From NCBI GenBank assembly GCA_016783145.1, contig JADHXD010000001.1:20665-84664 (forward strand): a stretch of 64,000 nt of DNA, read 5' to 3'. Numbering within the stretch: position 1 is the stretch's first letter; each line of letters begins with the position of its first letter. Under the pieces are notes generated by a model that was not told where the DNA came from, did no database searches, and saw nothing but the letters and a program-made list of their open reading frames with translations. Positions 34,635 through 63,256 of this stretch are shown in pieces. The translations under genes were made by a program, and so were the position numbers. Source of the stretch: Anaerolineae bacterium (GTDB taxonomy: Bacteria; Chloroflexota; Anaerolineae; JAFGEY01).

Positions 34635-34663
34635 TTTACAACGCCGCCCCTCTATACTATAAT
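34635..34663 (+). promoter_or_regulatory. Near-consensus sigma70 promoter TTTACA-17-TATAAT at the head of the signalling island
   Basis: tttaca 34635-34640, 17-nt spacer, tataat 34658-34663. Confidence 0.75.
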
Positions 34664-34669
34664 ATAGAG

Positions 34670-34879
34670 AGTGCGCCCGACGGGCCAGCAGCGCCTGTGT
34701 ACCGACGCTGTGGGCGGCTCAAGCCCAGCACCTCCCAGCCTGTGCAGTTGGCCTGGCATCCTGGGCAGACAGATTCTGAGGCGGGGGATCGCCCTCAGAG
34801 AATCTACGGACCGACTGCACATCGCCGCCCAACCTGATCAGGTCGAACAGCGCATCCCATAGGCAGATAGGAGGACCAG
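34670..34879 (+). ncRNA. Candidate structured leader RNA or independent small RNA
   Basis: Nested helices: 34711-34718/34824-34831, 34741-34751/34811-34821 (one G.U), 34771-34777/34799-34805; plus palindrome acctgatcaggt 34832-34843. ~210 nt between the promoter and the GTG start. Confidence 0.5.
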
Positions 34880-37591
34880 GTGACCCTCACAAAGCGATTC
34901 CGAATCGCGATCGCAGTCGTGCTCAGCGGGCTTGCCCTGCTCGCCGGAGCATGGGTTCTGCGGGCTTGTGCATCGCCACCTCAGGCGAGAGCCGGCGGCA
35001 GTGTACTGGCGGCACTGACGGACCACACGATCTTGGAGGCAGAAGGCGTATCCACCAGGACGTTGACGCTCACACTGGCCTCCACGGAGACGCTGAGGCT
35101 CTCCATCGTGCCCACGGGAACGCTGACCCTGATCCGTGACCCGGGCGGACCGCACACTGTTACGGTCATCCTCTCCGGCACCCAGGGGATAGATGCCCCG
35201 GTCCCTGGTGCCCTGGAGATCCTGTTCGAGCCCGGCAGTTCGTTGACGCGTATCGTGACGCTCGAGGAGCCCCTGGACTTTGCCATCATACCCACCGGAT
35301 CGCTGCTGGCAGATGATCTGATCTTTACGGTCACCACCCCGGACAGTGGAACACTGGTCTTTGGCGTCCTGGACTGGGACGTAGTGGACTCGCAGGCTAG
35401 CCCTCCCTCAATCACCGAACCGACTGCAACACAACCCAAACCGACTGCGACGCCGCCCGAGCCCACCGCAACACAGCCCGAGCCGACTCCGACGGCGCCT
35501 GCTCCCACAGCCACGCCGCCCGAGCCAACCGCGACGCCGCCTGCCCCCACTGCAACACAGCCCGCACCCACCGCCTCGCCGCCGGCGCCCACCGCCGCGC
35601 TGGTCGAGCCCACTGCTGCCACGCCGATTGCGATCCCCACGCCTGCGCGGACCCTGGTGGAGCGGGTCAGGGACAACTTTGCCCTGTTTGCCGGCATCCT
35701 GCTGGGATTGCTCGTCATCCTGGTTGTCCTTCTTGTCGTTCAGCTCTTTGGCAGTCGCAAGCAGCCGGAGACAAAAGCTCTTCACCCGGCACCCGAACAG
35801 GCACCAGGACCAGCAGGCGCCTTCTCACCTCTCGTATGTCCTGAATGTCGTTTCGAGAACCGGGCAAACGCCAGCTTCTGCAATCGCTGCGGAGCACCAC
35901 TGCCTGGCGAGAGCGCAGTCAGCGAGGCAGCCAAGGGATCCCCAACCATACCCATGTCGGCAGCCGGCGAACCATCTGAACTGCTCTCGCTCCTGTCCGT
36001 CGGTTCGCTGATCGGCGGAGAACGGCTCCGCGTGCTAAAGGTGGTAGGACAGGGCAAGACGTTCAACACCTACCTGGTTCAGGAGCAACCAGCGACCCTA
36101 CGCTGCCCCAATGCAGAGTGCGGCGCAGTCAATCCCGGCGGCGTTCAGCACTGTGAGGTGTGTGGTGCAGCGATGAACGATGAGGCGCGTGACACTCAAA
36201 CGTACTGGGTAAAAGAGGCACCCAGCGCGAACGCCTTTATGGTTGAACGCGAGATCATTGCCCTGGGGTTGGCCCACCCGAACCTGGTCCCTCCCCGCGC
36301 GGTGTTCGCGGAACCCGTTGGCGAGCAGACGCGCCACTATGTCGTGCTGGACGAGCCGCGTTGGCAGACAGCCGAGCAGCTCAGTACGCCGCAGCCTCTG
36401 TCCTCCGTGCTAGAGTGGGGCATTGGTCTGGCAGAAGGTCTGGCGTACCTGCACGAGCACCGCATCGTCCTCCACAAATTGGGCGACCGACAAGTCGCTC
36501 TGGCGAATGCGAACGGAGAAGAGCATCCGGCATTGGCCAAGTGGGCGGACCTGAGTACAGGTTTTGTGATCCCCTTGGAAGAATGGCAGCAGACGGGCAC
36601 GCGGCGGATCGCCAGCGATGTTCGGCAGCTTGCCGCCCTAATGTACCGCCTGGCAACCGGCCTCACACAGTATGATCCGCATGTCACGGTAGCGCTGCCC
36701 CAGCTTCAGGCCACATTCGCCCACGCGCTTGGGACGGAGGGATACACCACGTCGGAGGAGCTGGCGGCAACCTTGCGGCAGGCCAAGGTCAGCGTACGCC
36801 ACCCAAGCGGCCTGGATATCCACGCTGTTCGCCTCTCAGACACAGGCCGGCAGCGCCCTTTGGATGAAGACAGCATCGTGACGCTGGAGTTGGGCCAGGT
36901 CTACCGCTCGGTTAGCATGCCGTTGGGCGTATACGCCGTAGCTGACGGGATGGGTGGCCATCAAGGCGGAGACGTAGCCAGTCGCCTGGCGGCCCACACG
37001 ATCGCTCGGCGGGCGATCCAAGATGTGCTGACCCCGGCAGTGACGGACGGCGCGCCCCCGGTAGACTATGTGGCGTGGCTCAAGAGCGTCATCGCGGAAA
37101 CCAACCAGATTGTCTTTGAGCGACGCAGATCCTCTCGGAACGATATGGGAACGACGCTGGTCCTCGCCGTAGTGGAAGACGATACCGCTCACATTGCTCA
37201 CGTAGGCGACAGTCGCGCTTACCTGATCGCGGATGGGGCCATCACCCGGCTCACCACGGATCACTCTCTTGTGGAACGGCTGGTCGCCACAGGACAGATC
37301 ACCGCGGAACAGGCGGCCACTCATCCCCAGCGCAATGTCATCTACCGGAACATCGGCGACAAGCCCAAGGTCGAGCCGGACATCACGCGACAGACCCTGG
37401 CTCCTGGCAACGTCCTGCTGTTGTGCTGTGATGGACTGAGCGGCGAGATCAGCGATGAGGAGATTCTGCGGATCGTGACCCAGTCGCCCTCCCTGCCAGA
37501 AGCGGCGCAGCAACTGGTCGCCGCGGCAAACGCCGCAGGAGGCAGCGACAATATCAGCGTCATCCTGATCGGCGTCCGTGCCGTGATGTGA
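34880..37591 (+). CDS. Membrane protein: PT-rich linker, TM, zinc ribbon, pseudokinase-like region and PP2C phosphatase domain
   Basis: CPECRFENRANASFCNRCGAPL zinc ribbon; degenerate kinase region lacking HRD/DFG (VLHKLGDRQVALAN...KWADLSTG); PP2C motifs VYAVADGMGGHQGGDVAS, HIAHVGDSRAYL, LLLCCDGLSGEI, GGSDNISVI. Confidence 0.85.
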   Translation: MTLTKRFRIAIAVVLSGLALLAGAWVLRACASPPQARAGGSVLAALTDHTILEAEGVSTRTLTLTLASTETLRLSIVPTGTLTLIRDPGGPHTVTVILSGTQGIDAPVPGALEILFEPGSSLTRIVTLEEPLDFAIIPTGSLLADDLIFTVTTPDSGTLVFGVLDWDVVDSQASPPSITEPTATQPKPTATPPEPTATQPEPTPTAPAPTATPPEPTATPPAPTATQPAPTASPPAPTAALVEPTAATPIAIPTPARTLVERVRDNFALFAGILLGLLVILVVLLVVQLFGSRKQPETKALHPAPEQAPGPAGAFSPLVCPECRFENRANASFCNRCGAPLPGESAVSEAAKGSPTIPMSAAGEPSELLSLLSVGSLIGGERLRVLKVVGQGKTFNTYLVQEQPATLRCPNAECGAVNPGGVQHCEVCGAAMNDEARDTQTYWVKEAPSANAFMVEREIIALGLAHPNLVPPRAVFAEPVGEQTRHYVVLDEPRWQTAEQLSTPQPLSSVLEWGIGLAEGLAYLHEHRIVLHKLGDRQVALANANGEEHPALAKWADLSTGFVIPLEEWQQTGTRRIASDVRQLAALMYRLATGLTQYDPHVTVALPQLQATFAHALGTEGYTTSEELAATLRQAKVSVRHPSGLDIHAVRLSDTGRQRPLDEDSIVTLELGQVYRSVSMPLGVYAVADGMGGHQGGDVASRLAAHTIARRAIQDVLTPAVTDGAPPVDYVAWLKSVIAETNQIVFERRRSSRNDMGTTLVLAVVEDDTAHIAHVGDSRAYLIADGAITRLTTDHSLVERLVATGQITAEQAATHPQRNVIYRNIGDKPKVEPDITRQTLAPGNVLLLCCDGLSGEISDEEILRIVTQSPSLPEAAQQLVAAANAAGGSDNISVILIGVRAVM
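35420..35629 (+). repeat. Tandem degenerate 21-nt repeat encoding (PTATxPx)n, ~10 units
   Basis: Translated units PTATQPK PTATPPE PTATQPE PTPTAPA PTATPPE PTATPPA PTATQPA PTASPPA PTAALVE PTAATPI. Confidence 0.8.
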
Positions 37592-37760: not shown

Positions 37761-39020
37761 ATGCCAGGAGAAGTGAGCCTGACCGTAAGAACCAACAAGG
37801 TCAACTTTCCCGTTACCGGGACACCGCAATTGGTCTATGTGCTGATCGAGGCGATGCCTACGGATGCCGTAGCCACCGTACAGATGCCTCTGAACTTTGC
37901 ACTCGTGCTCGATCACAGCGGCTCCATGTCCGGGGCCAAGTTGGCTAATATGAAGACAGCGGCCAAGATGGCCACTGATCAGATGGGTCCCAACGACATC
38001 GTCTCCATCGTGGTCTACGATGAGAAGGCTCGCGTGATCGCCGCTGCGCAGGCGGCGACCAACCGATCCGAACTGCACCGCGAGATCGACCGCATCCGCG
38101 ATAGGGGAGGTACAGCCATTTCCTCGGGAATGCAGGCCGGACTGAGTGAGCTGCGCAAGAACCTGGGCCCAGGCCGCGTTAGCCGCCTTCTGCTGCTCAC
38201 AGACGGACAGACCTATGGGGACGAGCCTGAATGCCACCGGCTGGCCGCGGAGGCTGGACGACTAGAGATCCCCGTGACCGCATTCGGCCTGGGAGATGAC
38301 TGGAACCAGGACCTGCTGGACGGCATAGCCCGGGAGAGCGGCGGCGTTTCTGATTTCATCGACGATGTCACGCCACAGAAGATCATAGACCAGTTCCAGC
38401 AGTCTGTGACTTCAGCACAGGCAGCGGTAGTCAAGAATGCCAACCTGGTCTTGCGTCTGGTAACCGGCGTGATCCCCAAGAACGTTTGGCAAGTCCGGCC
38501 TCAGATCGCCAAATTGGGGCAGCGCGCGCTCTCAGATCGCGATGTCCAGGTCTACCTTGGCGACCTGGAAAAGGTCCAAGGACGCAGCGTTCTGATCGAG
38601 ATGACCGTGCCTGCGCGCCAGCCGGGGCGATACCGCGTGGCTCAGGCAGAGCTGGACTACGAGGTGCCCGCGACGGGTCTGACCCACGAAACGGTGCGCA
38701 CCGATGTGCTGCTCGGCTTCACAGGAGACCCCAGTGTGGCCAGGCAGGTGGATCCGCTGGTGATGAACGTTGTCGAAAAGGTGACCACGTTCAAACTGCA
38801 GACCCGCGCCCTGGAGGAGGCACAAGCCGGCAACATCGCCGCCGCAACGCAGAAACTGCGTGCCGCAGCCACTCGATTGCTGGAGATGGGCGAGGAGGAT
38901 CTAGCAGCCGATATGCAGCAAGAGGCGGCCAACCTTGAGCAGAAGGGACAGATGTCCTCGAGAGGTACCAAAAGGATCAGCTATGCCACGCGCAAGCTGA
39001 CACAGAAACTAGAGGACTAG
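37761..39020 (+). CDS. vWA-domain protein
   Basis: MIDAS ALVLDHSGSMSGAKL, LLLLTDGQTYGDEPEC; C-terminal helical region 'FKLQTRALEEAQAGNIAAATQKLRAAATRLLEMGEEDLA'. Confidence 0.9.
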   Translation: MPGEVSLTVRTNKVNFPVTGTPQLVYVLIEAMPTDAVATVQMPLNFALVLDHSGSMSGAKLANMKTAAKMATDQMGPNDIVSIVVYDEKARVIAAAQAATNRSELHREIDRIRDRGGTAISSGMQAGLSELRKNLGPGRVSRLLLLTDGQTYGDEPECHRLAAEAGRLEIPVTAFGLGDDWNQDLLDGIARESGGVSDFIDDVTPQKIIDQFQQSVTSAQAAVVKNANLVLRLVTGVIPKNVWQVRPQIAKLGQRALSDRDVQVYLGDLEKVQGRSVLIEMTVPARQPGRYRVAQAELDYEVPATGLTHETVRTDVLLGFTGDPSVARQVDPLVMNVVEKVTTFKLQTRALEEAQAGNIAAATQKLRAAATRLLEMGEEDLAADMQQEAANLEQKGQMSSRGTKRISYATRKLTQKLED

Positions 39021-39051
39021 GCACGATCCAAGATGGAGCAAGGAGACAGAG

Positions 39052-39726
39052 ATGAACTGCCCACAGTGTGGTACCGCAAACGAGGACGGAGCGGCATTCT
39101 GCGATAACTGTGGTTTCAGGATGCCGGATCTGGAGACGATCGTTCAGCCCGGCCCGGCTCCACAGGCGTATCCGCCGGCTCCTCCATCCGCTCAGCCGGC
39201 AGACATGGCGCCTACAGTGCTTGCCGGAGCCGGGGCAACACGGTGTGCCCAATGTGGTACATCCCTACCACCAGGCGCGGCATTCTGTGACAATTGCGGG
39301 GGCCCCGTGGGCGCCGCCGTGCCCGTTGTCCAGCAGCCAGCGCCTCCGCCAGTCGTTCAGCCATCTTATCAGCCGGCGATGCCGCAGCCGCCTGCCAGCA
39401 GCCAACCCGTCCTGATCATCCAGGTGACGGGCGCTCAGATCCCGCTGCCTCTCGGGAAGGGAGAGTATCTCATCGGCCGCGAGGATCCGGTGAGCAACAT
39501 CTTTCCCGACGCAGATCTGGCACCACATGGCGGCGAAGAGGGGGGTGTCAGCCGCCGCCACGCACGCCTATTCCAGCAGGCTGGGGGGTGGTACATTGAG
39601 GACTATAACACCGTCAATTTCACCTTTGTCAACAACCAGAGGGCACAGCCGGGTGTGCCGATGTCAGTGCACAGCGGCACCGAACTGCGCTTTGGTCGGG
39701 TCAAGGTGACACTCTTGCTGCAGTAG
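39052..39726 (+). CDS. Double zinc ribbon + FHA-domain protein
   Basis: CPQCGTANEDGAAFCDNCGFRM, CAQCGTSLPPGAAFCDNCGGPV; FHA 'GEYLIGREDPVSNIFPDADLAPHGGEEGGVSRRHARLF'. Confidence 0.9.
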   Translation: MNCPQCGTANEDGAAFCDNCGFRMPDLETIVQPGPAPQAYPPAPPSAQPADMAPTVLAGAGATRCAQCGTSLPPGAAFCDNCGGPVGAAVPVVQQPAPPPVVQPSYQPAMPQPPASSQPVLIIQVTGAQIPLPLGKGEYLIGREDPVSNIFPDADLAPHGGEEGGVSRRHARLFQQAGGWYIEDYNTVNFTFVNNQRAQPGVPMSVHSGTELRFGRVKVTLLLQ

Positions 39727-39754: not shown

Positions 39755-40669
39755 ATGAGCAACTACTGCCACCTATGCGGACGCCCGCTGGCCCAAGGCC
39801 TGAGCATCCATGTGCACCCTGAGCACCCCGACCATCAGCTTGCAGTGTGTGGACACTGTCACAAAACGGCCCCGCGCTGCCGGCGCTGTGGGCTGCCGAT
39901 GCGCGCCGACATGTCCACCGGCGCCAATTGTGCACTGTGCGCGGCGGGCGCGCCGCGCTGCCGTTCGTGTGGTTCGCCAGTCACCGGCAGCTATGTCGAG
40001 ATCAATGGCCTAGGTCCCTACTGCAGGACATGCCATGAGACGCGCCAGCATTGCAGCGTCTGTGGTGTTCCGCTCGACGCTCGCGCGCGCTACCTGCCGG
40101 ATGGGCGCGCCATCTGTGCAACCTGCCAGCAGACGGCAGTTCTCGAGGCTGGACAGGCCAAGTCGCTGTTTGATTGGACAGTCCAGGCCATCCAGACCGC
40201 GCTCAGCCTCGGCCTGCGTGTCGGTGTGCGCTTTGTGGTAACCGACCATCCGGGTCTCCGCGCCCAGATCCAGAAGGCGCGGCCCGACCTGATCTATGAG
40301 GCCGACAGGCTGCTCGGCGTCTATGTGCGGGAAGACCCACACCGCACCATCTATGTCGAGAATGGGCTGCCCAGCATCCTGTTGATCCAGGTCGTGGCTC
40401 ACGAGTGGGCACACGCCTGGCAGATGGAGAACTGCCCGACGCCCCAAGAGATGCTGATCGTGGAGGGCTTTGCCGAGTGGGTGGCATACAAGGTGCTGCA
40501 GGAGATGGGCGCGGTGAAGAAAATGGGGCTGATGGCCGCGCGACCCGACTTGTACGGCGAAGGACTGCGGCTTATGCTTGCTCGAGAAGAGCGCAAAGGC
40601 ATCCCGGGCGTATTGGCGCTGTGTCTTGCCCGCGCCCAGCCGGACAAGGCACAGACCCCGGCCCCATGA
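39755..40669 (+). CDS. LIM-like zinc-finger protein with DA1-like metallopeptidase domain
   Basis: Series of CxxC pairs (CHLCGRPL, CGHCHKTAPRCRRCGLPM, CALCAAGAPRCRSCGSPV, CRTCHETRQHCSVCGVPL, CATC) followed by 'IQVVAHEWAHAWQMENC...LIVEGFAEWVAYKVLQEMG' (HExxH plus EGFAEW). Confidence 0.75.
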   Translation: MSNYCHLCGRPLAQGLSIHVHPEHPDHQLAVCGHCHKTAPRCRRCGLPMRADMSTGANCALCAAGAPRCRSCGSPVTGSYVEINGLGPYCRTCHETRQHCSVCGVPLDARARYLPDGRAICATCQQTAVLEAGQAKSLFDWTVQAIQTALSLGLRVGVRFVVTDHPGLRAQIQKARPDLIYEADRLLGVYVREDPHRTIYVENGLPSILLIQVVAHEWAHAWQMENCPTPQEMLIVEGFAEWVAYKVLQEMGAVKKMGLMAARPDLYGEGLRLMLAREERKGIPGVLALCLARAQPDKAQTPAP

Positions 40670-40700: not shown

Positions 40701-42116
40701 GTCCCCTATGGAGGGTGCCACACGGACGCCCAACTGATCCTGACACACCAGTTGAACAGAACCACCATTCCGATCAGCGATCGACCGCGCCTGCTGTACC
40801 TGCTGATCGAAACCAGCAGCGGACAGGACCGCGCCGCGCGGATGCCAGTTCACCTGGCCCTGGTCGTGGACAAGAGCGATTCGATGATGATCCGCGTCGC
40901 GCCCCCCGACCTGCAAGAGAGGTGGATGAAGCTGGGCTATGTGCGCGAAAACGTGATAGATGGCGTCCCCTCACTACGAGTGGACGTCGACAAGGTCTCG
41001 CCCGCGGAATTGCGTGCTTTGCCACGCGCCACCGACATGGTCAAGCAGGCCCTGCGTGCCGTTGTGGACTTGTTAGGCGCCGGCGATCGATGTGCGCTGA
41101 TCCTGTTCGCGGTGCAGGCGTTCTCGCTCGTCCCGCTGTCGTCCTCCTTGGATCGGGAAAAGATCCTCTCGGCAGTAGAGACGATGGACAACTTGGCCTT
41201 GGGCGATGACACGTACATGGGCCGCGGCATCGCCCTGGGGCTGGAGGAGCTGGGGCGCAGCACAAACCACCGTGTCACCAGCAGGATGATCGTACTGACA
41301 GACGGCTACACACTGGATGAGGCCGACTGCCGTGTGCTCGCACGGCGAGCCAAGTCGATGGGCATCGCGATCAGCACGATGGGCGTGGGCGGAAGCTACA
41401 ACGAGGAGTTGATCATCCCCATAGCTGACGACACCGGTGGTCACGCCTACGGCATCGAAAAGCTGGAGGACATCCTGCCGTCGTTCCGGCACGAGCTGAG
41501 CATGGTCCAGTCGATCGTCTGCCGCAACCTAGAGCTCAAACTACGCCTGAGTCAGGGCGTAGAGCTGCGCGCTGCGCACCGGGTGCAGCCCGCCATCTCC
41601 CATCTGGGCGACGTGGCGCTGGTTGACCGGAGTGCCAGCTTGAGCCTGGGTGACTATGAAACAAACGCACCACCAGCCTTGCTTCTGGAATTGGTGTGTC
41701 CGCCCAGATCCACCGCCGGGACATACCGCCTGGCCCAACTGGTGTTGGCCTACGACGAGCCCACCAGTCTCCCTGGGCAGGCGCCACGACGACTCATCCG
41801 CCAGGACGTCGTGGCGCACTATGTAGCCGGCCCGATCCGCGAGCCGGCCCACCCACGAGTGATGAACATCGTCGAGCGGGTAACGACCTTTACGCTGCAG
41901 ACGCGCGCACTGCAAGATGTCCAGCGCGGCGATATCTCTGGCGCAACACAGAGGCTGCGGACCGCAGCGACGCGTCTGCTGGATATGGGAGAGACGGATC
42001 TGGCGCAGACCGTGCAGGAGCAAGCGCGGCAATTGGCAGAGCGAGGCCAGATCTCGTCAGAGACGGCCAAGTCCGCGCGCTACAAGACGCGCAGACTGAC
42101 CAAGACGCTGCGCTAG
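40701..42116 (+). CDS. vWA-domain protein, paralogue of the 37761-39020 gene
   Basis: LALVVDKSDSMMIR MIDAS, RMIVLTDGYTLDEADC; C-terminus 'FTLQTRALQDVQRGDISGATQRLRTAATRLLDMGETDLA' matches the paralogue. Start codon ambiguous: 40701 is where similarity begins, not a start; the ORF opens at 40578. Confidence 0.85.
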   Translation, partial: VPYGGCHTDAQLILTHQLNRTTIPISDRPRLLYLLIETSSGQDRAARMPVHLALVVDKSDSMMIRVAPPDLQERWMKLGYVRENVIDGVPSLRVDVDKVSPAELRALPRATDMVKQALRAVVDLLGAGDRCALILFAVQAFSLVPLSSSLDREKILSAVETMDNLALGDDTYMGRGIALGLEELGRSTNHRVTSRMIVLTDGYTLDEADCRVLARRAKSMGIAISTMGVGGSYNEELIIPIADDTGGHAYGIEKLEDILPSFRHELSMVQSIVCRNLELKLRLSQGVELRAAHRVQPAISHLGDVALVDRSASLSLGDYETNAPPALLLELVCPPRSTAGTYRLAQLVLAYDEPTSLPGQAPRRLIRQDVVAHYVAGPIREPAHPRVMNIVERVTTFTLQTRALQDVQRGDISGATQRLRTAATRLLDMGETDLAQTVQEQARQLAERGQISSETAKSARYKTRRLTKTLR

Positions 42117-42178: not shown

Positions 42179-44086
42179 GTGATCAGAACGTGTCAAAAGT
42201 GTCACCATCCACTGCGCCCGGGAGCGCGCTTTTGCGGCGCCTGCAACACGCCGGCACCGCCTCTCACAGCAGGTAACCCGGCCTACGGGACATGCGCCAA
42301 CGGACACGCGCAAATCCGCCCGAACGCGCGCTTCTGCTACCGGTGCGGCGAGCCGGTCCGCCGAGCTGCCGCGTCCGATCTCTCGCACGGCGTGTGCGCA
42401 AAAGGTCACGAACAGATCCGTGCTGGTGCCCGGTTCTGCTACATCTGCGGCGCGCCCGTTACTCGCGCGGGACGGGCGGCGCCGGACCGGTCCAGCGCAG
42501 GGCTGAACGGACGCTACCAGATCTTGGGAGAAGTCGGAAGAGGCGGTATGGGCAGCATCGTCTACCAGGTGCGCGAAGCAAAGGCAGGATCCATCTTGGC
42601 CATCAAGGAGATGGACGAATCGGAGCTCCAGTCCTCCTTGGCGTCACCAGAGGACGTGCCCGAGATTGTCAAGGCATTTCGGCGCGAGGCCGACCTCCTG
42701 CAGCGTCTTGACCATCCCAACATCGTCAAGGTACACGACTATTTCCAACTCAGCGATCGACACTACACCGTTATGGACCTGGTGCAGGGACAGACGCTCA
42801 ACGAGATGCTGGAGACGAGCCCGGGTGGGTTTCCTGAACAGCGTGTCCTGCCGTGGGCTGAACAGTTGTGCGATGCACTGGAGTATCTACACGCTCTGAC
42901 CCCGCCCATCATCTACCGAGATCTGAAGCCGGGCAACGTGATGATCGAGACCGCCAGCAGCCGGGTCAAGGTGATCGACTTTGGTATCGCCCGCGAATAC
43001 AAGGGGGGAAAGAAGAAAAGCGACACCATCAAGTTCGGCACGGATGGCTATGCGTCGCCAGAGCAGTACGGCTCCAAGGGCACGGAAACGTCCCCTGCCT
43101 CAGACGTGTACTCGCTGGGCGCGCTCTTGTACCGGCTCCTGACCGGCGAGGACCCAATGCAGAATCCCTTTAGCTTCTACCGGCGGGATTCTCTGCTGCG
43201 TCCCCCGGTTTCCGCCTCCGCGCACGTGGCAGACGCCCTGGAACGTGCGGTCGAACTGGATGCCGCCCAACGCTTCCAGAGCATGGCCGAGTTCAAGAAA
43301 GCCCTGACCGGACAGGACGCAGCCACAGCTAGCAGTCAAAGTCACGCCAGGGTGAGGCGGGGGGGGGCAAAGAGAAAAGTACGAAAGGCCAACCCCTCCA
43401 GCACGGGTAGCTCCGTTCCTCCTTACTCGCCGCCGGGCAAATCGATGCCATCCATGGCAACGACACCGGTGCGTGTCTCCCAGAGGAAAATGGACCTGCG
43501 TAGGGTGGCAAAGGGAGGACCACCTCCAGCCCCTCGGCAATTCATCGTCCTCTCCGCAGGGGGCGGCACGGTCGAGGTGACCGCTGCAGCACCTTGGCTA
43601 AAGATCTCGCCGAGCATGGCGGTCGGCGGGCAGGCTGTGGACGTCTTGGTCGTGCCGGAGCAATTGGCGCTGACCCGATACCGCTGGCAGGCACCCAACA
43701 TCCTGGCCCCCCCTTTCAGGGTGCTGGCAGCGTGGTTCAGACGAACATGGTGGGTCTGGCTCTTTGTTGCCCTGGCTGCGTTTCTGTTTCACCCGGTCGC
43801 TCAAGGACTCGTGCTGCTCGTGGGCGGCACAATCGGCATTCAGATGGCGATGTGGCTGATGACGTGGCTTCTGCCGCGTTGTGTGCCCAAGCCCAAGACA
43901 CTTACCGATCAGGTCCGCATCGACAACGGCTTCAGCAGCCAGGTCATGGAGGTCACGGTCAAGGCCGTGCCCTCTGTGCGCCGCCGGGTGCTCGGCTGGG
44001 GTGCGCTGGTCGCTGCCCTCCTGGCAGAAGTGACTGCGGTCGGCGCTGGACTGTGGTGGACGTACTGGACGCTGGCCGGAAGCTAG
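42179..44086 (+). CDS. Zinc-ribbon Ser/Thr protein kinase with C-terminal TM segments
   Basis: Three CxxC-type ribbons; kinase GEVGRGGMGSIVYQV, AIKEMDE, IIYRDLKPGNVM, VIDFGIAREY, DGYASPEQYG; C-terminal TM helices. Confidence 0.92.
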   Translation: MIRTCQKCHHPLRPGARFCGACNTPAPPLTAGNPAYGTCANGHAQIRPNARFCYRCGEPVRRAAASDLSHGVCAKGHEQIRAGARFCYICGAPVTRAGRAAPDRSSAGLNGRYQILGEVGRGGMGSIVYQVREAKAGSILAIKEMDESELQSSLASPEDVPEIVKAFRREADLLQRLDHPNIVKVHDYFQLSDRHYTVMDLVQGQTLNEMLETSPGGFPEQRVLPWAEQLCDALEYLHALTPPIIYRDLKPGNVMIETASSRVKVIDFGIAREYKGGKKKSDTIKFGTDGYASPEQYGSKGTETSPASDVYSLGALLYRLLTGEDPMQNPFSFYRRDSLLRPPVSASAHVADALERAVELDAAQRFQSMAEFKKALTGQDAATASSQSHARVRRGGAKRKVRKANPSSTGSSVPPYSPPGKSMPSMATTPVRVSQRKMDLRRVAKGGPPPAPRQFIVLSAGGGTVEVTAAAPWLKISPSMAVGGQAVDVLVVPEQLALTRYRWQAPNILAPPFRVLAAWFRRTWWVWLFVALAAFLFHPVAQGLVLLVGGTIGIQMAMWLMTWLLPRCVPKPKTLTDQVRIDNGFSSQVMEVTVKAVPSVRRRVLGWGALVAALLAEVTAVGAGLWWTYWTLAGS

Positions 44087-54470: not shown

Positions 54471-55576
54471 AAGGAGCCCTAGTCTGCGGAGCCCAGAGTT
54501 CCACACTGTCCCCCACGCTCGCCCTCTCCCTGGCGGTGCTCGCCCTGGTGGTCTTGGCGATCGGTGGACTGGGCCTCAGGGTTCTGCTCCACCGGCGGAC
54601 TGGTTCCCGCTTGGCGGGGGAGGGTCGCAAACCACCGGGCGAGCGTGCCGACCAGTCCCCCGTGCGCCCAGTACGTGCCCCTGGGGGGCTCAAGCCTTCA
54701 CACGTCCTTGCCTCATCCACTTGCATCCGGTGCAGCGCCAATCTGCGTCCCGGACAGACGCACTGCCCGCGCTGCCACTGGCCTGTGCTCACCATCGGCA
54801 ACCGGTACCAGGTGCTGCGCCTGTTGGGCAAGGGCGGCATGAGCTCTGTGTATCTGGTTCGGGACCGACGCATCTCTGGTCAGTATTTGGCGGCAAAAGA
54901 GATGAGCGACGCGACGATCGCAACAACCGAGGAACGCAAGCAAGCCATCGACGCCTTCCAGCAGGAGGCACAATTGCTCGCTCGGCTCGAGCACGCCAAC
55001 CTGCCCCGGGTCACAGAGTTCCTCAGCCAGGGCGATCGTCACTATCTGTTGATGGATTGCATCGATGGCGAGACATTGCAGGATCTGCTGGCCCAACGCG
55101 CAGCTCCCTTTGCAGAGGCAGAGGTGCTGGGTTGGGCGGGCCAGCTCTGCAGCGTCCTGTCCTACCTGCACACCCGTCATCCGCCGGTGATCTTTTGCGA
55201 TCTCAAGCCGGGCAATATCATGCTGGGCCGCGATGGACGACTCAAGCTGATCGACTTTGGCATCGCCCGCTTTTTCCTGCAGCACTGGATGGCCAGCGAA
55301 CCGCAGCGGTTGGGCACACCGGGCTACGCACCTCCCGAGCAGTATGGACAAAGTCAGGCCGACGCCCGGTGGGATGTCTACGCGCTGGGGGTGACCTTGC
55401 ACCAACTGCTGACCCTGCACGACCCGGCAAGCACGCTCTTTGCCCTTCCTCCAGTGCGGCGGCTGAATCCCGCCGTATCGCCCAGGACGCAGGCCGCCAT
55501 CACCCAGGCGATACAGCCCGATCCGAACCATCGCTTTCGCAGTGCCGCCGAGATGGGGCACGCACTGGGGGTGTGA
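54467..55576 (+). CDS. Membrane Ser/Thr protein kinase with Cys4 ribbon and atypical FCD catalytic loop
   Basis: N-terminal TM, CIRCSANLRPGQTHCPRCHWPV, LLGKGGMSSVYLVRD, AAKEMSD, VIFCDLKPGNIM, LIDFGIARFF; ATGA overlap with the upstream stop. Confidence 0.88.
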   Translation: MKGALVCGAQSSTLSPTLALSLAVLALVVLAIGGLGLRVLLHRRTGSRLAGEGRKPPGERADQSPVRPVRAPGGLKPSHVLASSTCIRCSANLRPGQTHCPRCHWPVLTIGNRYQVLRLLGKGGMSSVYLVRDRRISGQYLAAKEMSDATIATTEERKQAIDAFQQEAQLLARLEHANLPRVTEFLSQGDRHYLLMDCIDGETLQDLLAQRAAPFAEAEVLGWAGQLCSVLSYLHTRHPPVIFCDLKPGNIMLGRDGRLKLIDFGIARFFLQHWMASEPQRLGTPGYAPPEQYGQSQADARWDVYALGVTLHQLLTLHDPASTLFALPPVRRLNPAVSPRTQAAITQAIQPDPNHRFRSAAEMGHALGV

Positions 55577-55585
55577 GCGCACGCC

Positions 55586-57595
55586 ATGGCGAGGACCAAC
55601 GTGGATAGAGATCCTGGCAGCCGTCCACCAGCCAGCCGAGGCCGATTCCTTCGCCGTACTGGCTGGATGCTCCGTGCCGGCGCTGCAAGCCCATCTCGCC
55701 TTCTTGCCATCGGCTGGATCATCTGGTCGGTGAGCGGCGTCTTACTTGTCGGGGTCGTTACGCTGCTCATCCTGTATCGATGGCTCGACCAACAAGAGGG
55801 CCAACTGCGATCCGCGGGCGTGTCCGTCCTCACCCCGGTCCCCACAGTGCAGCAAACGGGCCGCGCGACCGCCACGCCAACCGCGACGCCAACGCCAACC
55901 GCCCTCATCCCAAGCCCCACCCTACCCACGCCGAGACCCGATCCCGTCGCCCAACGTGTCGATCAGCTCCTGTCCAGAATGACGCTCGAAGAAAAGGTAG
56001 GACAGCTATTCCTGGTGTTCTTTGTCGGTCCTGACCTGTCCCCTTCTCTCCAAGAGCTAGTCGCCCAATATCACGTGGGTGGAATCCTGCTGTTCAGCTC
56101 TACCGACAACGTGCAAAGCATGCCCCAGGTGGCGCAATTGATCAACCAGGTCCAGGGTGAGGCTGTCAGCCACGGGGCCGGGATCCCACTGTTCGTCGCC
56201 CTGGATCAGGAAGGGGGCTCCGTCGTCCGTCTGGCGCGTGGAGCGACGGTATTCCCCAGCAATATGGCCCTCGGCGCGACTCGATCAATCGACAACGCAC
56301 GCCTTATGGCCCAGGTGACGGCCACCGAGCTCAAGGCCCTGGGCATCAATATGAACCTGGCCCCGGTGGTAGACGTCAATAACAATCCCGATAACCCGGT
56401 GATCGGCACACGCTCGTTCGGTTCTTCGCCCCAACAGGTGGCCGACCTGGGCGCGGCGATGATCGAGACGTACAAGGCCAACGGCATCATCGCCACGGCA
56501 AAGCACTTTCCTGGACACGGTGATACAGCGACGGACTCGCACCTGGCCCTCCCAGTCATCCCTCACCGAATCGAGCGCCTGGAAGCCACGGAGCTGCTGC
56601 CATTCCGGGCAGCCATCCGCGCCGGAGTGGACGCCATCATGACCGCACACGTCCTCGTTCCCGCCGTCGATCCGAGTCCTGCGCTGCCGGCAACCCTCTC
56701 GTCGGATGTCTTGCAGGGCCTGCTGCGGGATAGGCTGCGCTACCAGGGTCTGATCACAACGGACTCGCTGGGTATGCGCGCGATCGGCCAGGCCTACGGA
56801 GTTCCCGAGGCAGCCGGCATGGCTTTCCTGGCTGGTGCGGACCTGCTGGCTCTCGGGGCCGACCCCGGACACATGCCCGCAGAGCAGCGCTCCGCCTGCC
56901 AGCACGTCCTATCTCTGGTAGAGTCTGATCCGCTCCTGGAAAGCCGCCTGAACGAGTCAATACGGCGCATCCTGCTGGTCAAGGCACGGTATGGACTGCT
57001 GGATTGGGAGCCCGCCCACGTCGGCGAACCTGCGCTGCAGATCGGGACAGACGACCACGACAGGATTGCCCGTCACATCGCCCAGGAGAGCATCACCCTG
57101 GTACGGAACCATGCCGGTACGCTCCCTCTCGCAGCAGACCAACTTCTGCTGGCAGTCGTCCCGCCGGGAGCGGCCGGTTTCGGAGGGAACCTACAGGCAT
57201 ACCATCCCCACACCCACGTTCTCCAGCTCAGCCTCAATCCATCCCCGGAGGAGATCGAGCGGGTCGTTCGCGCGGCAGAGGGCGCGTCCGTGGTCGTCGT
57301 GGGGACAGTGAATGCGCGTCGCCATCCGGGACAGCTTGACCTGGTGCGCGCGCTGGCAGACCAGCCTCTGGTCGTGGCGGCGCTGGACACACCGTATGAC
57401 CTCATGAGCTTTCCCGGCATCAGCGCGTACTTGGCCTCGTACGGGCGCGTCCCTGTGTCCCTGGACGCCCTGGCGCGCGTGATCGTTGGCCTGGAGAAGC
57501 CCAGGGGGCACCTTCCGGTTGCGCTGCCGGGGCTGTACCCCCTGGGCCATGGGATGCACGATTTCGTCTCTGAGACTGCAGTGAGCAGCGACTAA
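55586..57595 (+). CDS. Membrane-anchored GH3 beta-N-acetylhexosaminidase-like protein
   Basis: N-terminal TM, PT linker; VALDQEGGSVVRLARG, NMNLAPVVDVNNNPDNPVIGTRSFG, ATAKHFPGHGDTATDSHLALP (NagZ-type GH3). Confidence 0.88.
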   Translation: MARTNVDRDPGSRPPASRGRFLRRTGWMLRAGAASPSRLLAIGWIIWSVSGVLLVGVVTLLILYRWLDQQEGQLRSAGVSVLTPVPTVQQTGRATATPTATPTPTALIPSPTLPTPRPDPVAQRVDQLLSRMTLEEKVGQLFLVFFVGPDLSPSLQELVAQYHVGGILLFSSTDNVQSMPQVAQLINQVQGEAVSHGAGIPLFVALDQEGGSVVRLARGATVFPSNMALGATRSIDNARLMAQVTATELKALGINMNLAPVVDVNNNPDNPVIGTRSFGSSPQQVADLGAAMIETYKANGIIATAKHFPGHGDTATDSHLALPVIPHRIERLEATELLPFRAAIRAGVDAIMTAHVLVPAVDPSPALPATLSSDVLQGLLRDRLRYQGLITTDSLGMRAIGQAYGVPEAAGMAFLAGADLLALGADPGHMPAEQRSACQHVLSLVESDPLLESRLNESIRRILLVKARYGLLDWEPAHVGEPALQIGTDDHDRIARHIAQESITLVRNHAGTLPLAADQLLLAVVPPGAAGFGGNLQAYHPHTHVLQLSLNPSPEEIERVVRAAEGASVVVVGTVNARRHPGQLDLVRALADQPLVVAALDTPYDLMSFPGISAYLASYGRVPVSLDALARVIVGLEKPRGHLPVALPGLYPLGHGMHDFVSETAVSSD

Positions 57596-57822: not shown

Positions 57823-59052
57823 ATGAGCGGGGTCGGGTATACGCTTGGCGGCTACCGAATCGAGGAGGAGATCGGCCAGGGCAAAGCGGCCCGGGTCTAC
57901 CGTGCCTACCAGGCTCAACTGGATCGATGGGTAGCGCTCAAGGTGCTGAAAACAAGCAATGCGGGCGATCAAGAGTTCCTCGCGCGCTTTCGCCGCGAGG
58001 CCAGGGCGATCGCTGCCCTGCGGCACCCCAATATCCTCACCATCTATGACTATGGCGAAGAGGGCGGGTACGCCTACATTGTGATGGAGCACGTACCCGG
58101 AGGCCCTCTCCGGGTGCGATTGACGGGACAGCCCCTCGAGTGGCCGGACGCGGCAACACTGATCATCCCGGTAGGCCGTGCGCTGGCCTATGCGCACTCG
58201 CGGGGTATCGTCCACCGCGACGTTAAGCCAGCCAATATCCTGCTGGCAAACGCAGACTGGCCTCTTCTGGCCGACTTTGGCCTGGTCAAGGTGGTCGGTG
58301 GACCAGGCACGATCACTCAGCCTGGGGTCAGCATTGGCACACCGACCTACTTTTCTCCCGAGCAAGCCGCAGGCGATGAGGTAGACCATCGCAGCGACAT
58401 CTACAGCCTGGGGATCCTGCTCTACGAAGTGCTCACCGGTCACCTCCCCTTCGAAGGCGGCACGCCGTTTGAGGCGATGATCCGCAGGCTGCGCGAACCA
58501 CCCATCCCTCCCCGACATCTCAATCCGCTGATCACGCCCCAGCTACAGGACATCACTCTGCGAGCATTGGCCCGAGAGCCCGAGGAGCGCTATCCCACCA
58601 TGCAAGCGATGGTCGACGAGCTGGCAAAACAGCCGGGCGCTACGGGACGGGTTGCTGTACAACCCTCGTCAACCTCGTGGTCGGCGGACACGACGACTCG
58701 CATCAGTGAGTTCTCTGCTGTCACAGGTCCTCACTTGATCGTCGTGAGTACCGAAACCACGGTGTGTCTCCCTTATCCTCAGAAGAGCGAGATCTTCATT
58801 GGCCGCGTCCATCCTCACACCGTCCCGCTGCCCGACGTGGACCTGGGCCCCTACGGAGGAAGCTCGGCGGGAGTCTCTCGCCGCCACGCTCGTTTGACAT
58901 TCGGCCCGGCAGGCTGGCTGCTGGAGGACCTGGGCAGTACGAACGGCACCTTCCTGAACGGTGTGCAGGTGCATCCCGGACAACCGGGGTGTGTGCAAAG
59001 CGGCGATTCGATCCGCTGTGGCCAGTTGATGCTGGTATTCTACGAGGAATAG
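57823..59052 (+). CDS. Ser/Thr protein kinase with C-terminal FHA domain
   Basis: EEIGQGKAARVYRAYQ, IVHRDVKPANIL, LADFGLVK, PTYFSPEQAAG; FHA 'IFIGRVHPHTVPLPDVDLGPYGGSSAGVSRRHARLTF...DLGSTNGTFLNG'. Confidence 0.92.
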   Translation: MSGVGYTLGGYRIEEEIGQGKAARVYRAYQAQLDRWVALKVLKTSNAGDQEFLARFRREARAIAALRHPNILTIYDYGEEGGYAYIVMEHVPGGPLRVRLTGQPLEWPDAATLIIPVGRALAYAHSRGIVHRDVKPANILLANADWPLLADFGLVKVVGGPGTITQPGVSIGTPTYFSPEQAAGDEVDHRSDIYSLGILLYEVLTGHLPFEGGTPFEAMIRRLREPPIPPRHLNPLITPQLQDITLRALAREPEERYPTMQAMVDELAKQPGATGRVAVQPSSTSWSADTTTRISEFSAVTGPHLIVVSTETTVCLPYPQKSEIFIGRVHPHTVPLPDVDLGPYGGSSAGVSRRHARLTFGPAGWLLEDLGSTNGTFLNGVQVHPGQPGCVQSGDSIRCGQLMLVFYEE

Positions 59053-59172: not shown

Positions 59173-62022
59173 ATGAAGTGTCCCAACTGTGGCCTTGAGA
59201 ACCGGCCTGGCGCTCGCTTCTGCAAGCGCTGCGGCCAGGCGATGGAGGAGGTACAGGGGAGCCTGTGCCCGGCCTGCGGGACCGCCAACCAGCCCGACGC
59301 CCGGTTCTGCAGACAGTGCGGGACCTCTCTGACCACCGCCTCCGCCCCGCCCCAGCCCATCGCCGAACTCACCTGTCCGGCCTGCGGGGCCAGCAACAAG
59401 CTGGATGCGCGATTCTGCCGGCAGTGCGGCACGTCCCTGGCCTCCGTCCCCTCCTCGCCGTCCGCCGACGCCGGCCTGACCTGCCCCGCGTGCGGAGCCG
59501 CGCTCAGGCCAGGAGCCCCTTTCTGCTCCCAGTGCGGCGCCCGCAGAACGATCGAGCCGGTGCCGCTCGCTCCTCGCGAGCCTCCTCTTCCGTCTCCCCC
59601 CCGCGCGAGTGACGCCGGGGTGCGCGTGGCGGGAGGGGTCAGCGGGCAGATGGTCGTGGGAGACCACAACCTGGTGCTCCAGGTCGAACACTTGCACGGC
59701 GACATCGTCCACAAGGTTCAGCAGCAGCCGCAGGTCCGCCACCGGTCCAAAGCCGCTACCAGCCACCTCGACCCTACCCCCGAGCTGCTGGACCGGCGGA
59801 CAGAGCTGGACGTCGCCGCCGATGCCTTCGGGTCCGCCGCGCCGATCGAGTTCCACGGCCAGGATGGGATCGGCAAAACGGCCCTCTTGCGTCACCTGGC
59901 TCACCACTACCCGGGGGGCGCTTACCCTCAGGGGGTCGTATACCTCCTGGCCCAGAGGACACCGGTCGCGGACCTCTTCCAATGCCTCCACGATGCCTTC
60001 TACGAGAGCGATATCGCTTTCAAGCCCAGTGAGCGCCGCATCCGAGACGATCTCCGGGGAGAGCAGGCCCTCGTCCTTCTCGACGACGTGGAGCTGCCCC
60101 GGAACGAGGTCGAGTCCCTGATCGACGTCGCACCGCGCTGCACCTTTGTGCTCGCCTCTCCGCAGCGCCGCCTGTGGGCACGAGGGCGATCCATCGAACT
60201 GGGCGGGCTGCCCCTGGAAGACGCTGTGGCCCTCGTCGAGCGCCACGTTGGACGTCCCTTGACCTCCCAGGAACAGCTCGATGCCCAGGGCCTGTGTGCC
60301 GCCCTCGACGGTCGTCCAGATCAGCTCATCCAGGCCGCCGCGCAGGTCTGCGAAGGTGAATGCTCCCTGGTCGAGGTCTCTCGGCGCGCGCAGACCTCTG
60401 CGAGGACACTCACCACGGGTGCGCTGGCTTCCCTCTCTGACACCGCGCGACGGATCCTGGCACTCCTGGCAGCGGTCAAAGACGCCCCACTGCACGCCGA
60501 GCACATCGCCGCCATCCTGGGCACGACCGATGCCCTCCCTGCCCTCCAGTCTCTGCAGCAGCGCGGACTCGCACAGGCCCACAGCCCTCGCTACAGCCTG
60601 GCCGGCACCCTGGGCGAGGAATTACGGGGATCCTGGGACCTGGACCCCTGGACGGAGCGCGCCCTGTCCTACTTTGCGTCGTGGGCAGAGGGGGGGCAGG
60701 CGACCGAGCTCCTGCTCGCCGAGGCGGACCCCATGCTGCGCGTGCTCGAATGGGGTGCTGGCGCGGGGCGTTGGGAGCAGGTGCTGCGCCTGGGTCGAGC
60801 GATCGAGGGCCCCTTAGCCCTCGACAGGCGATGGGGGGCGTGGGCGCAGGTCTTGCAGTGGATCTTGGAGGCCTCACGCGCGCTGGCGGACCAGGCTGCC
60901 GAAGGGTGGGCCCTGCACCAGTTGGGCACCCGCGCCCTCTGCCTGGGCGAGTTCCCTGCGGCCCGCACCGCGCTGACCCAGGCCCTCGACGTGCGCCAGG
61001 CGCTGGGCGATCAGGCGGGAGCAGCGGTTACCCAGCACAACCTGGACATTCTCGTGGGCCTCGTCGCTGCGCCGCAGGAACCTGAGGAACCGCCAGAGGA
61101 ACCGCCTCGACCACCGAGCCCAAGCCTTCCGCTGCTGGTCAAGGGGGCCATCGCCCTCGTCTCCATCTTGATCCTGTCCGTGGGAGGATGGTTCGTTTGG
61201 ACCCAAATCCGCCCCCCGCCTACGCCGCCACCGACGTATACGCCTCGACCGCCGACGTCCACGCCGGTTCCTGCTGTCCGGCCAACCGACACGAGGCAGG
61301 CACCCACCCCGGCCCAACCGAGGCCAACCGACACGAGGCGGGTCCCGTCGCCCACTCCCGACATCTGGGGGCCGAACATCGAGGACATCCGCGTTGAGCC
61401 AGAGCGCTATCCGGGCGAGGCCCTCTGCGGCAACCAGCAAGCCGACGTTTCCTGCCAGATCACCGACCCCTCCGGTGTAGGGCGAGCAGCACTCTCGTAC
61501 AGATATACGTCCGCAGAGGGCGTGGGCACGGTGCGGACGGAAGCAATGGAGCGCACAAACGACGGGCGCTACCACGCGAGTCTCGGGACCTTTCCGGGCG
61601 AAGGCGAACTGGTGTTCCGTGTGGAGGCGTGGGACGATCTCGGGAACCCCTCCAGCTCGGGCGAGCAGGGACGGGTGGTCCTTTCCTGCATCCCGCCCAG
61701 CATCGAGGAGATCATCATCGATCCCGAGTACCGTCCGGGCAAGTCCGTCTGCTACTACCAGGACCTGGTCGTCATCAGCTCGGTCGTCGACTCGCCCCCG
61801 GCAGAGAAGGCGCAGTTCTGCTACCGGTTCACGCCCGCCGAGGGCGGATCGCCCAGGTCGGGGTGCGTCGAGATGGAGCGGGTAGACGACCAAACCTTCT
61901 CTGCCCAGATAAAGGCTATGGGATGGTGGGGTCAGTTGTCCTACACCGTCGAGGCCTGGGACGGAGAAGGGAACGCGTCCCTCCGCGAGGACGTGAGAGA
62001 GGTCAGCATGTGCATTGAGTAG
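59173..62022 (+). CDS. Transmembrane STAND (NB-ARC-like) ATPase: four zinc ribbons, NTPase, TPR-like region, TM, two ectodomain repeats
   Basis: Four CPxCG..FCxxCG units; Walker A GQDGIGKTALLRHLA, Walker B ALVLLDDVEL; TPR-like 'EGWALHQLGTRALCLGEFPAARTALTQALDVRQALGDQ'; TM 'LLVKGAIALVSILILSVGGWFVW'; duplicated Cys-containing C-terminal modules. Confidence 0.85.
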   Translation: MKCPNCGLENRPGARFCKRCGQAMEEVQGSLCPACGTANQPDARFCRQCGTSLTTASAPPQPIAELTCPACGASNKLDARFCRQCGTSLASVPSSPSADAGLTCPACGAALRPGAPFCSQCGARRTIEPVPLAPREPPLPSPPRASDAGVRVAGGVSGQMVVGDHNLVLQVEHLHGDIVHKVQQQPQVRHRSKAATSHLDPTPELLDRRTELDVAADAFGSAAPIEFHGQDGIGKTALLRHLAHHYPGGAYPQGVVYLLAQRTPVADLFQCLHDAFYESDIAFKPSERRIRDDLRGEQALVLLDDVELPRNEVESLIDVAPRCTFVLASPQRRLWARGRSIELGGLPLEDAVALVERHVGRPLTSQEQLDAQGLCAALDGRPDQLIQAAAQVCEGECSLVEVSRRAQTSARTLTTGALASLSDTARRILALLAAVKDAPLHAEHIAAILGTTDALPALQSLQQRGLAQAHSPRYSLAGTLGEELRGSWDLDPWTERALSYFASWAEGGQATELLLAEADPMLRVLEWGAGAGRWEQVLRLGRAIEGPLALDRRWGAWAQVLQWILEASRALADQAAEGWALHQLGTRALCLGEFPAARTALTQALDVRQALGDQAGAAVTQHNLDILVGLVAAPQEPEEPPEEPPRPPSPSLPLLVKGAIALVSILILSVGGWFVWTQIRPPPTPPPTYTPRPPTSTPVPAVRPTDTRQAPTPAQPRPTDTRRVPSPTPDIWGPNIEDIRVEPERYPGEALCGNQQADVSCQITDPSGVGRAALSYRYTSAEGVGTVRTEAMERTNDGRYHASLGTFPGEGELVFRVEAWDDLGNPSSSGEQGRVVLSCIPPSIEEIIIDPEYRPGKSVCYYQDLVVISSVVDSPPAEKAQFCYRFTPAEGGSPRSGCVEMERVDDQTFSAQIKAMGWWGQLSYTVEAWDGEGNASLREDVREVSMCIE
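59188..59559 (+). repeat. Protein-coding tandem zinc-ribbon repeats (4 units)
   Basis: CPNCGLENRPGARFCKRCG / CPACGTANQPDARFCRQCGTSL / CPACGASNKLDARFCRQCGTSL / CPACGAALRPGAPFCSQCG. Confidence 0.85.
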
Positions 62023-62059
62023 GCCCCTCGCCGGGACCGTTTGAGCCGAGGAGGAAAGA

Positions 62060-63256
62060 ATGACCGTCTACGATGGAGGGCACGCGCTGATCGTCGGCGT
62101 GGGCGGCGATTTGCCGAACACAACGCGCGATGCCGAGGGGCTCGCGGACATCCTCAAAGATCCATCCCGCTGTGCCTACCCGCCCGGGCACGTCCGCCTG
62201 CTGAGCGGCGAGGGAGCGACTCGCGACGCGGTGCTCTCTGCGCTCGACACACTGGCCCAGACCGCGGAGCCCGAGTCGGCAGCCATCGTCTACTTTTCCG
62301 GACACGGCTATCGGGTCGCCTCACCGACGGGCGAGTTCTTCTACATGCTCCCCTACGGGTACGACCTGCGCCGGCTGTACCAAACCGCGATCAGCGGCGC
62401 CGAGTTCACGGCTCGACTCCGCGCCATCCCTGCCCGGAAGCTGCTGGTGCTGCTCGACTGCTGCCACGCGGGAGGGGTGGGCGAAGAGACCGAGGCACCC
62501 GGCCTGGAGCTCGCCAAGTCCCCTCTGCCGCCGGAAGCGCGTGACCTGTTGGCCGAGGGCAGCGGCAGGGTGCTCATTGCGTCCTCGCGGAACAACGAGC
62601 TGTCCTTCGCTGGGAGGCCCTACAGCGCCTTTACCCTGGCTCTGATCGAGGCCCTGTCTGGCACAGGCGCTGCCAGGCAGGACGGCTATGTGCGCGTGGC
62701 CGACCTGGCCCTACATGCCCGCCAGGTCGTCCCCGGGCGCACGCGCGACCGGCAGCACCCCATCCTCCACTTTGAGCAGGCCGACAACTTTGTCCTGGCC
62801 TACTATGCTGGCGGCGAGACGCAGGCCAAGGGCGTCCCCTTTGCCGGAGAGCCCGAGATCGAGCCCGAACCCGGGGCGTGGACCGCCCTCGACCAGCGCG
62901 GACAGACCGTCCACGGCCCGCAGGTCAACGTGGCGGGGACCTTCGAGGGCCCGGTCACCGTCACTCAGAGCGAAAAGACCGATATGCGCGGCGCGCAAGG
63001 CGTCGTCTACAAGCCGGCTGGACCGGTCACTCAGGAATTCGGCCCACACGTCGAGGTCGACGGCGGGGTCAGCGGGCAGGTCGGAGTGGGCGATGGACAG
63101 ACCATGATCCAGATCAGGGATGCGTCCGCGGACCGCGACCGAGAACAGACCCCGAGCTCAGGGCATGCTCGGCAGTTCTGCACCTCGTGTGGACGGCGGC
63201 TGAGGGCCGGCGCCAGGTTTTGCAGCGGGTGTGGCGAGCCGGTCGATCGGTCATAG
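62060..63256 (+). CDS. Caspase-like (peptidase C14) protein with C-terminal zinc ribbon
   Basis: Catalytic His AAIVYFSGHGYR and Cys LLVLLDCCHAGG; 'ASSRNNELSFAGRPYSAFTLALIEAL'; C-terminal FCTSCGRRLRAGARFCSGCGEPV. Confidence 0.9.
   Translation: MTVYDGGHALIVGVGGDLPNTTRDAEGLADILKDPSRCAYPPGHVRLLSGEGATRDAVLSALDTLAQTAEPESAAIVYFSGHGYRVASPTGEFFYMLPYGYDLRRLYQTAISGAEFTARLRAIPARKLLVLLDCCHAGGVGEETEAPGLELAKSPLPPEARDLLAEGSGRVLIASSRNNELSFAGRPYSAFTLALIEALSGTGAARQDGYVRVADLALHARQVVPGRTRDRQHPILHFEQADNFVLAYYAGGETQAKGVPFAGEPEIEPEPGAWTALDQRGQTVHGPQVNVAGTFEGPVTVTQSEKTDMRGAQGVVYKPAGPVTQEFGPHVEVDGGVSGQVGVGDGQTMIQIRDASADRDREQTPSSGHARQFCTSCGRRLRAGARFCSGCGEPVDRS

Follow-up and report, generated by a model that had tools for sequence, protein, structure and literature searches.

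Sixteen consecutive genes in an Anaerolineae genome encode kinases, phosphatases, FHA readers, an exporter, proteases, and a caspase, and most of their products share a small Cys4 zinc ribbon. Why should proteins of such different folds carry the same element? The ribbon could be a tag that ties its carriers into one signaling system, as a first-pass annotation made from the sequence alone had proposed. Alternatively, it could be a generic domain that happens to abound at this locus. We examined the gene content of the island, the distribution of ribbons within this genome and across the class, and the resemblance of the core proteins to known systems.

Gene content of the island

The source genome is a 4.98-Mb draft, about 92% complete and with 5.5% contamination. 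The window, that is, the whole stretch of 64,000 nucleotides that was analyzed (G000:C12:20665-84664), reaches the end of its contig (84664 bases). Within it, positions 34880-63256 hold 16 genes, all on the + strand and separated by gaps mostly shorter than 100 bases, in keeping with the consecutive same-strand arrangement first described. A DUF4012 protein is encoded just upstream on the same strand (32504-34591). A sigma-70-like promoter match (TTTACA-17-TATAAT, 34635-34663, + strand), which is a consensus match only (11 of 12 positions), lies at the island start given by the first-pass annotation and suggests that the DUF4012 gene is a separate transcription unit.

The first gene of the island (34880-37591) encodes an extracellular part, a transmembrane segment (TM), a ribbon (35837), a pseudokinase-like segment, and an active-looking PP2C; in Pfam, the PP2C has an E value of 1e-16 and the ribbon scores above the cut-off, and the Stp1-type PP2C profile scores above that of NCBIfam. 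It is followed by vWA1 (37761-39020), an ArnB-type protein composed of a vWA domain, a beta-sandwich, and a four-helix bundle, and by an ArnA-type reader (39052-39726) with two N-terminal ribbons (39058 and 39244) and an FHA domain matched by Pfam. The next protein (39755-40669) had been described as a DA1/LIM-like peptidase. Its HExxH metallopeptidase-like motif and LIM-like Cys fingers are present, but the Pfam matches to LIM (21.1 bits) and DA1-like (15.8 bits) are weak and under cut-off, and a fold search gave no significant match; we therefore ruled out the DA1 assignment and kept the protein as LIM-like/HExxH. A second ArnB-type protein, vWA2 (40704-42116), comes next; neither vWA protein has a ribbon.

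Downstream lie a kinase (42179-44086) with a canonical N-terminal ribbon (42191), two variant copies, and a C-terminal TM; a PP2C protein (44185-45909) with an N-terminal ribbon (44200) and a pseudokinase-like segment; and a kinase (45974-47665) with an N-terminal ribbon (45986) and a C-terminal multi-TM region. The latter two have full-length homologs in the island of genome G128 (55% and 53%, respectively). The following gene (47683-50457) joins a ribbon (47746; under the Pfam cut-off) and two FHA domains to an ABC exporter, and its homologs are found in the islands of G128, G017, G100, and G070, among others. Next to it are a ribbon-free kinase with an RDD membrane domain (50489-51913) and a subtilase (51972-54470), whose signal anchor, extracellular catalytic domain, and TM precede a cytosolic tail with two ribbons (54291 and 54402). 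The gene for a TM kinase with a ribbon at 54722 (54467-55576) shares its first four bases with the end of the subtilase gene. A search within the genome itself matched this frame as a kinase; the longest open reading frame there (54394-55608) was discarded as the wrong frame, with no domain. The remaining genes encode a membrane-anchored GH3 protein without a ribbon, a NagZ-like beta-N-acetylhexosaminidase (55586-57595; Pfam E value of 7e-91; 203 bits against a cut-off of 207); a ribbon-free kinase-FHA protein (57823-59052), which has a full-length homolog (62%) adjoining a subtilase in G100; a STAND-like ATPase (59173-62022) with four N-terminal ribbons (59179, 59266, 59374, and 59482), a VSGQ segment, a TM, and an extracellular C-terminal part; and a C14 caspase (62060-63256) with a C-terminal ribbon (63179).

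The domain list of the first-pass annotation largely stands. Pfam confirms the two PP2Cs, two vWAs, five kinases, FHA-ABC exporter, subtilase, GH3, and caspase, as well as three FHA proteins (39052, 47683, which has two FHA domains, and 57823). The STAND ATPase is retained as P-loop/STAND-like, with weak matches to NACHT and NB-ARC (E ~0.004 in Pfam). Judging by sequence motifs, both PP2Cs, the subtilase (Ser), the caspase (His and Cys), and the HExxH protein appear catalytically intact. The HRD/YRD/FRD motif is preserved in four of the five kinases; in the 54467 kinase, it is replaced by FCD.

Zinc ribbons and conserved neighborhoods

Ten island proteins contain Cys4 zinc ribbons and an eleventh (39755) has other, LIM-like Cys-pair fingers, consistent with the initial count of at least ten proteins with a ribbon or related fingers. 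The canonical Cys4 motif occurs in 14 copies over nine proteins, with one more in the 54467 kinase besides the two variant copies in 42179. The ribbon-free proteins are both vWAs, kinase 50489, kinase-FHA 57823, and GH3. All window proteins with a cytosolic domain carry a ribbon, an FHA domain, or, for 39755, Cys fingers, except the vWAs and kinase 50489.

Genome-wide, the ribbon family PF13240 yields 54 hits in about 30 proteins, and 15 of these hits, in at least eight proteins, fall within the 28 kb of the island, or 0.57% of the genome. At least eight proteins are thus observed where 0.17 would be expected (binomial p ~6e-12). The genome has 32 kinase matches. Of the 30 that were read, those with a ribbon are three of the five located here, one of the paralogous cluster at C137, and two others. 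Similarity among the window ribbons is higher than among other ribbons sampled from the genome (permutation p 0.003), a modest result obtained with short motifs. Recent DNA copying of ribbons between neighbors was ruled out, with identity at most 77%. Multi-ribbon proteins are also encoded beyond the island in the same genome (L084 on G000:C9, L085 on C221, L086 on C99, and L087 on C104), one of them, a TM protein of 1521 residues, having two ribbons at its N-terminus.

When 150 genomes of the class were searched with vWA1, 80 had hits, and the neighborhoods of these hits are of two kinds. The plain core, composed of four genes (kinase-PP2C-vWA-ribbonFHA), is widespread in the class, and this genome has one at C217; in plain cores, the ribbon is found on FHA only (FHA, 10/10; PP2C, 0/10; kinase, 0/11). 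The ribbon-rich kind is present in 14 genomes including this one, with vWA identities of 49-74%, either as short clusters (C137 of this genome, G042, G114, G067, and G035) or as large islands (G128, G070, G136, G100, G017, and Leptolinea UBA4782). Recurrent components of the large islands are the FHA-FHA-ABC exporter, vWA2, and ribbon-kinases; several islands also encode the 39755 peptidase and a subtilase that has a TM and, at its C-terminus, two or three ribbons. Strong homologs of 39755 are found in 5 of the 150 genomes, all five among the 14 (p 3e-6), where they share a contig with other island genes. The subtilase recurs in several genomes, and GH3 has a homolog in one other island, that of G128. 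In the vWA tree, plain-core vWAs are set apart from all others (support of 100/100), and vWA2 (40704) forms one clade (100/99) with the vWA2 of four other Chloroflexota islands or loci. In several Chloroflexales and Herpetosiphonaceae, an ArnB-type vWA has no kinase, PP2C, or ribbon-FHA neighbors (L129, L132, L133, L134, L149, L170, and L184). Overall, the core and several extra genes are repeatedly linked in different families. The first-pass annotation had set conserved neighborhoods across Chloroflexota against scattered genes and generic ribbons; core linkage is conserved and the ribbons are enriched, so that the outcome it named as a refutation did not occur.

The G128 island, a much larger relative of the one described here, comprises a 15.5-kb contig and about 102 kb of another, which probably join into one island. 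Nearly all its genes are co-directional, and its some 30 kinases resemble tandem copies. Its loci (L049, L050, L089, L090, L095, L096, and L097) also encode TM-vWA and TM-FHA proteins with ribbons, an M14-LysM carboxypeptidase, a HerA-like ATPase, and an FGE-sulfatase domain, and CHAT proteases are found in or adjoining the island. One protein (L090:7830-8843) combines an AhpC/thioredoxin-like domain, a TM, and zinc ribbons, yet another unrelated fold with the tag. A block within the G070 island (L070:11363-20000 and L071:1-2847) encodes a DO-GTPase2 with a ribbon, a radical-SAM/Fer4_12 protein, an AAA_2 ATPase, and coiled-coil proteins, and a 948-residue protein without a Pfam match comes after it. 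A secretion or injection system, suspected in these two islands from FtsK, HerA, and AAA hits, was not found there; the islands have DO-GTPase2, radical-SAM, and CHAT proteins instead.

Ribbon state differs between homologs inside and outside the islands. Loci were chosen by vWA type rather than by ribbons, with the exception of three contigs reached via subtilase hits (L276-L278). In ribbon-rich loci, ribbons are carried by 26 of 31 PP2Cs and 53 of 101 kinases, compared with 0/10 and 5/42 outside. Subtilase, STAND, and caspase together have a ribbon in six of seven island cases and in none of 21 outside. For all these comparisons, locus classes were assigned by hand, the counts include some truncated genes, and p-values are indicative only, as related sequences are not independent. 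In a search covering 14 genomes, subtilase homologs from islands share the TM-ribbon tail, whereas those outside lack it. According to a simple hydropathy prediction, an odd number of TMs separates the ribbon from a kinase, PP2C, or FHA domain in 0 of 214 pairs and from the subtilase domain in 11 of 11. Since the subtilase is extracellular, this parity places the ribbons in the cytosol. In these results, the ribbon behaves like a tag common to island proteins of unrelated folds, whether cytosolic or anchored in the membrane.

An ArnA/ArnB-like pair and a proposed role of the ribbon

In both profile and sequence searches, the best match of vWA1 (37761) is chain A of PDB 8s05 (phmmer against 8s05_A, E 8e-14), and the best profile match of the ribbon-FHA protein (39052) is 8s05_C, over ribbon and FHA, followed by ArnA of 5a8i. 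The 8s05 structure is the Sulfolobus ArnA-ArnB complex (PMC12852372); thus, the products of two adjacent genes independently match both partners of a single switch of known structure. An AF2 model of vWA1 (pLDDT of 90) contains a vWA domain, a beta-sandwich, and a four-helix bundle. In a Foldseek search with this model, ArnAB takes the second and third places (E ~1e-25), after 4fx5, a bacterial protein of the same tripartite structure (PMC6509490). In Sulfolobus, ArnA attaches to unphosphorylated ArnB solely through its zinc ribbon, which contacts the beta-sandwich and helix bundle; phosphorylation by ArnC alters the bundle so that it binds the FHA domain instead (PMC12852372).

Among 18 homologs of 39052, the FHA phosphate-binding residues and one ribbon Cys4 are invariant, and kinase and PP2C genes adjoin the vWA/ribbon-FHA pair in the window and in plain cores. 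None of 57 ArnB-type vWAs carries a ribbon. The prediction that conservation of the vWA proteins would be highest in the regions equivalent to the ArnAB docking surface gave a mixed result, holding for one of three stretches: the start of the helix bundle is in the 99th conservation percentile, and the others are in the 27th and 7th. The other tagged proteins have in common with ArnA its docking part, the ribbon.

We consider it an even question whether the island forms a membrane-associated phospho-signaling assembly around an ArnA/ArnB-like switch, in which the ribbon would dock its carriers on a vWA hub that itself has no tag. The two ArnB-type vWAs (37761 and 40704) would be the hub. Kinases would phosphorylate its C-terminal helix bundle, as ArnC does in Sulfolobus; the ribbon-FHA protein (39052) would read this mark, as ArnA does, and PP2C would erase it, as does the phosphatase in Sulfolobus. 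The ribbon may originally have been the hub-contacting part of the FHA partner and may have spread from it to kinases, phosphatases, the FHA-ABC exporter, and the cytosolic tail of the subtilase, and in this genome also to the STAND-like ATPase and the caspase. As a weak, pluggable tag, it would keep clients on the hub until phosphorylation rearranges the latter. As outputs, we would expect export, proteolysis at the surface or hydrolysis of the wall, and, in this genome, action of the caspase. The docking tag of the first-pass annotation stands as a shared, island-associated element with a structural precedent in ArnAB, although that annotation had noted neither the ArnA/ArnB match nor the untagged vWA as the probable hub; from that precedent, we infer that ribbons other than ArnA's might also bind a vWA, and any pairing of kinases with targets would follow the same analogy. 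Some observations speak against the hub: two of the three docking stretches are not unusually conserved, kinase 50489 has neither ribbon nor FHA, about half of the kinases in ribbon-rich loci have no ribbon, ribbons occur elsewhere in the genome, and several Chloroflexales have the vWA alone.

The ribbon may instead be a shared island tag whose partner is not the vWA but another ribbon, nucleic acid, lipid, or another protein, or it may sense zinc or redox state. Zinc ribbons are versatile, some of these proteins have up to four, a nucleic-acid role has been suggested for the ribbon of the TerY-P kinase (PMC11090510), and the uneven conservation of the docking surface fits such a role as well. 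Yet docking of a ribbon on a vWA is what the sole solved relative shows, many of the tagged proteins are anchored in the membrane, and the vWA is the one core component that never has a tag, so that we regard a different partner as rather unlikely. The idea that the ribbon has no common function, being generic, easily gained in this phylum, and accumulated through tandem duplication of kinases, seems very improbable to us. PF13240 is indeed common, with 7-17 hits in five genomes picked as having no ribbon-rich island, and the G128 kinases look like tandem copies; however, genomes with a ribbon-rich locus have 13-75 hits, the enrichment in the window is strong, and the ribbons sit on unrelated folds, at different protein ends, and are missing from homologs outside islands.

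The boundary of the system is a separate matter. The closest caspases (50-69% identity) and the four closest STAND homologs (31-52% identity) lie beyond islands and have no ribbon, having other C-termini or starting directly near the VSGQ segment. Neither gene was found in any other island read, and the EACC1-type caspase profile (NCBIfam NF047832) scored 98.7 bits, below its curated cut-off of 140. The STAND and caspase genes are a local, ribbon-tagged addition, and a single conserved system of all genes was rejected for these two, whose homologs elsewhere have no ribbons. One conserved system ending in STAND and caspase effectors is not supported; the subtilase and GH3 do recur. These two genes could even form a conflict or cell-death cassette beside the island, with the system proper ending at kinase-FHA 57823. 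Their nearest homologs either come from genomes that have no type-A island or lie on other contigs, both proteins contain VSGQ-like segments, and a 120-base gap precedes the STAND gene. We doubt this separation, since both carry ribbons that their homologs lack and other islands also contain conflict-type genes, such as the CHAT proteases in or adjoining that of G128 and the ribbon-bearing DO-GTPase2 in that of G070.

Taking the docking-tag assembly to its full extent, an ArnA-like ribbon would wire kinases, phosphatases, an exporter, a surface protease, an NLR-like ATPase, and a caspase to an ArnB/Sec23-like vWA hub, as plug-ins to a platform, and hub phosphorylation would be the master switch, including over the caspase. 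We advance this extended form tentatively, at somewhat less than an even chance. No description of such a bacterial arrangement was found in the literature searched, most subscription journals being outside it. If true, a bacterium scaffolds kinase signaling by fitting one small docking tag to new proteins, and an archaeal phosphoswitch with a Sec23/24-like core is linked to bacterial membrane signaling and perhaps cell death. It would also provide a sequence rule for finding further clients, namely, ribbon-tagged proteins near an untagged ArnB-type vWA.

Comparison with known systems

A known anti-phage system was ruled out, as PADLOC, run on ten proteins, matched only shared kinase, PP2C, ABC, and caspase domains. 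The TerY-P triad (PMC11090510) also groups vWA, PP2C, and kinase genes and has kinases with a ribbon. Its kinase ribbon is C-terminal, whereas window kinases have an N-terminal ribbon or none; a kinase-ribbon-FHA order does occur in the C137 cluster. Unlike TerY-P, the island has an FHA reader, no Ter or restriction genes, and a vWA that, by its best structural matches, is probably of the three-part ArnB type rather than TerY-like. The GAP1-N2/DO-GTPase conflict systems (PMC7159879) resemble the island in their often ribbon-fused kinase, PP2C, and stand-alone vWA, and the G070 island has a ribbon-bearing DO-GTPase2. Pfam found no DO-GTPase or GAP1 among the window island proteins, and the theme is described as restricted to actinobacteria (PMC7159879). 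TerY-P and GAP1-N2 systems thus share the kinase/PP2C/vWA triad, but the island lacks defining features of both.

The exporter Rv1747, encoded with the Ser/Thr kinase PknF (PMC3908365), likewise fuses FHA to an ABC exporter. In contrast, the 47683 protein has an N-terminal ribbon and would be a client among many others in its large island.

The closest parallel is Sulfolobus ArnA-ArnB (PDB 8s05, 5a8i, and 5a8j; PMC12852372 and PMC6509490), in which a protein with vWA, beta-sandwich, and helix bundle stands beside a Cys4-ribbon-FHA protein, with Ser/Thr kinases and a phosphatase, and two vWA paralogs are near the FHA gene. The island differs in being bacterial, in having PP2C instead of PP2A, and in having no archaellum; its ribbon is found on many other proteins, and it is a large membrane island with an exporter, proteases, and a caspase. 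As far as structural models and profile matches indicate, the anatomical features of ArnAB are present in the island.
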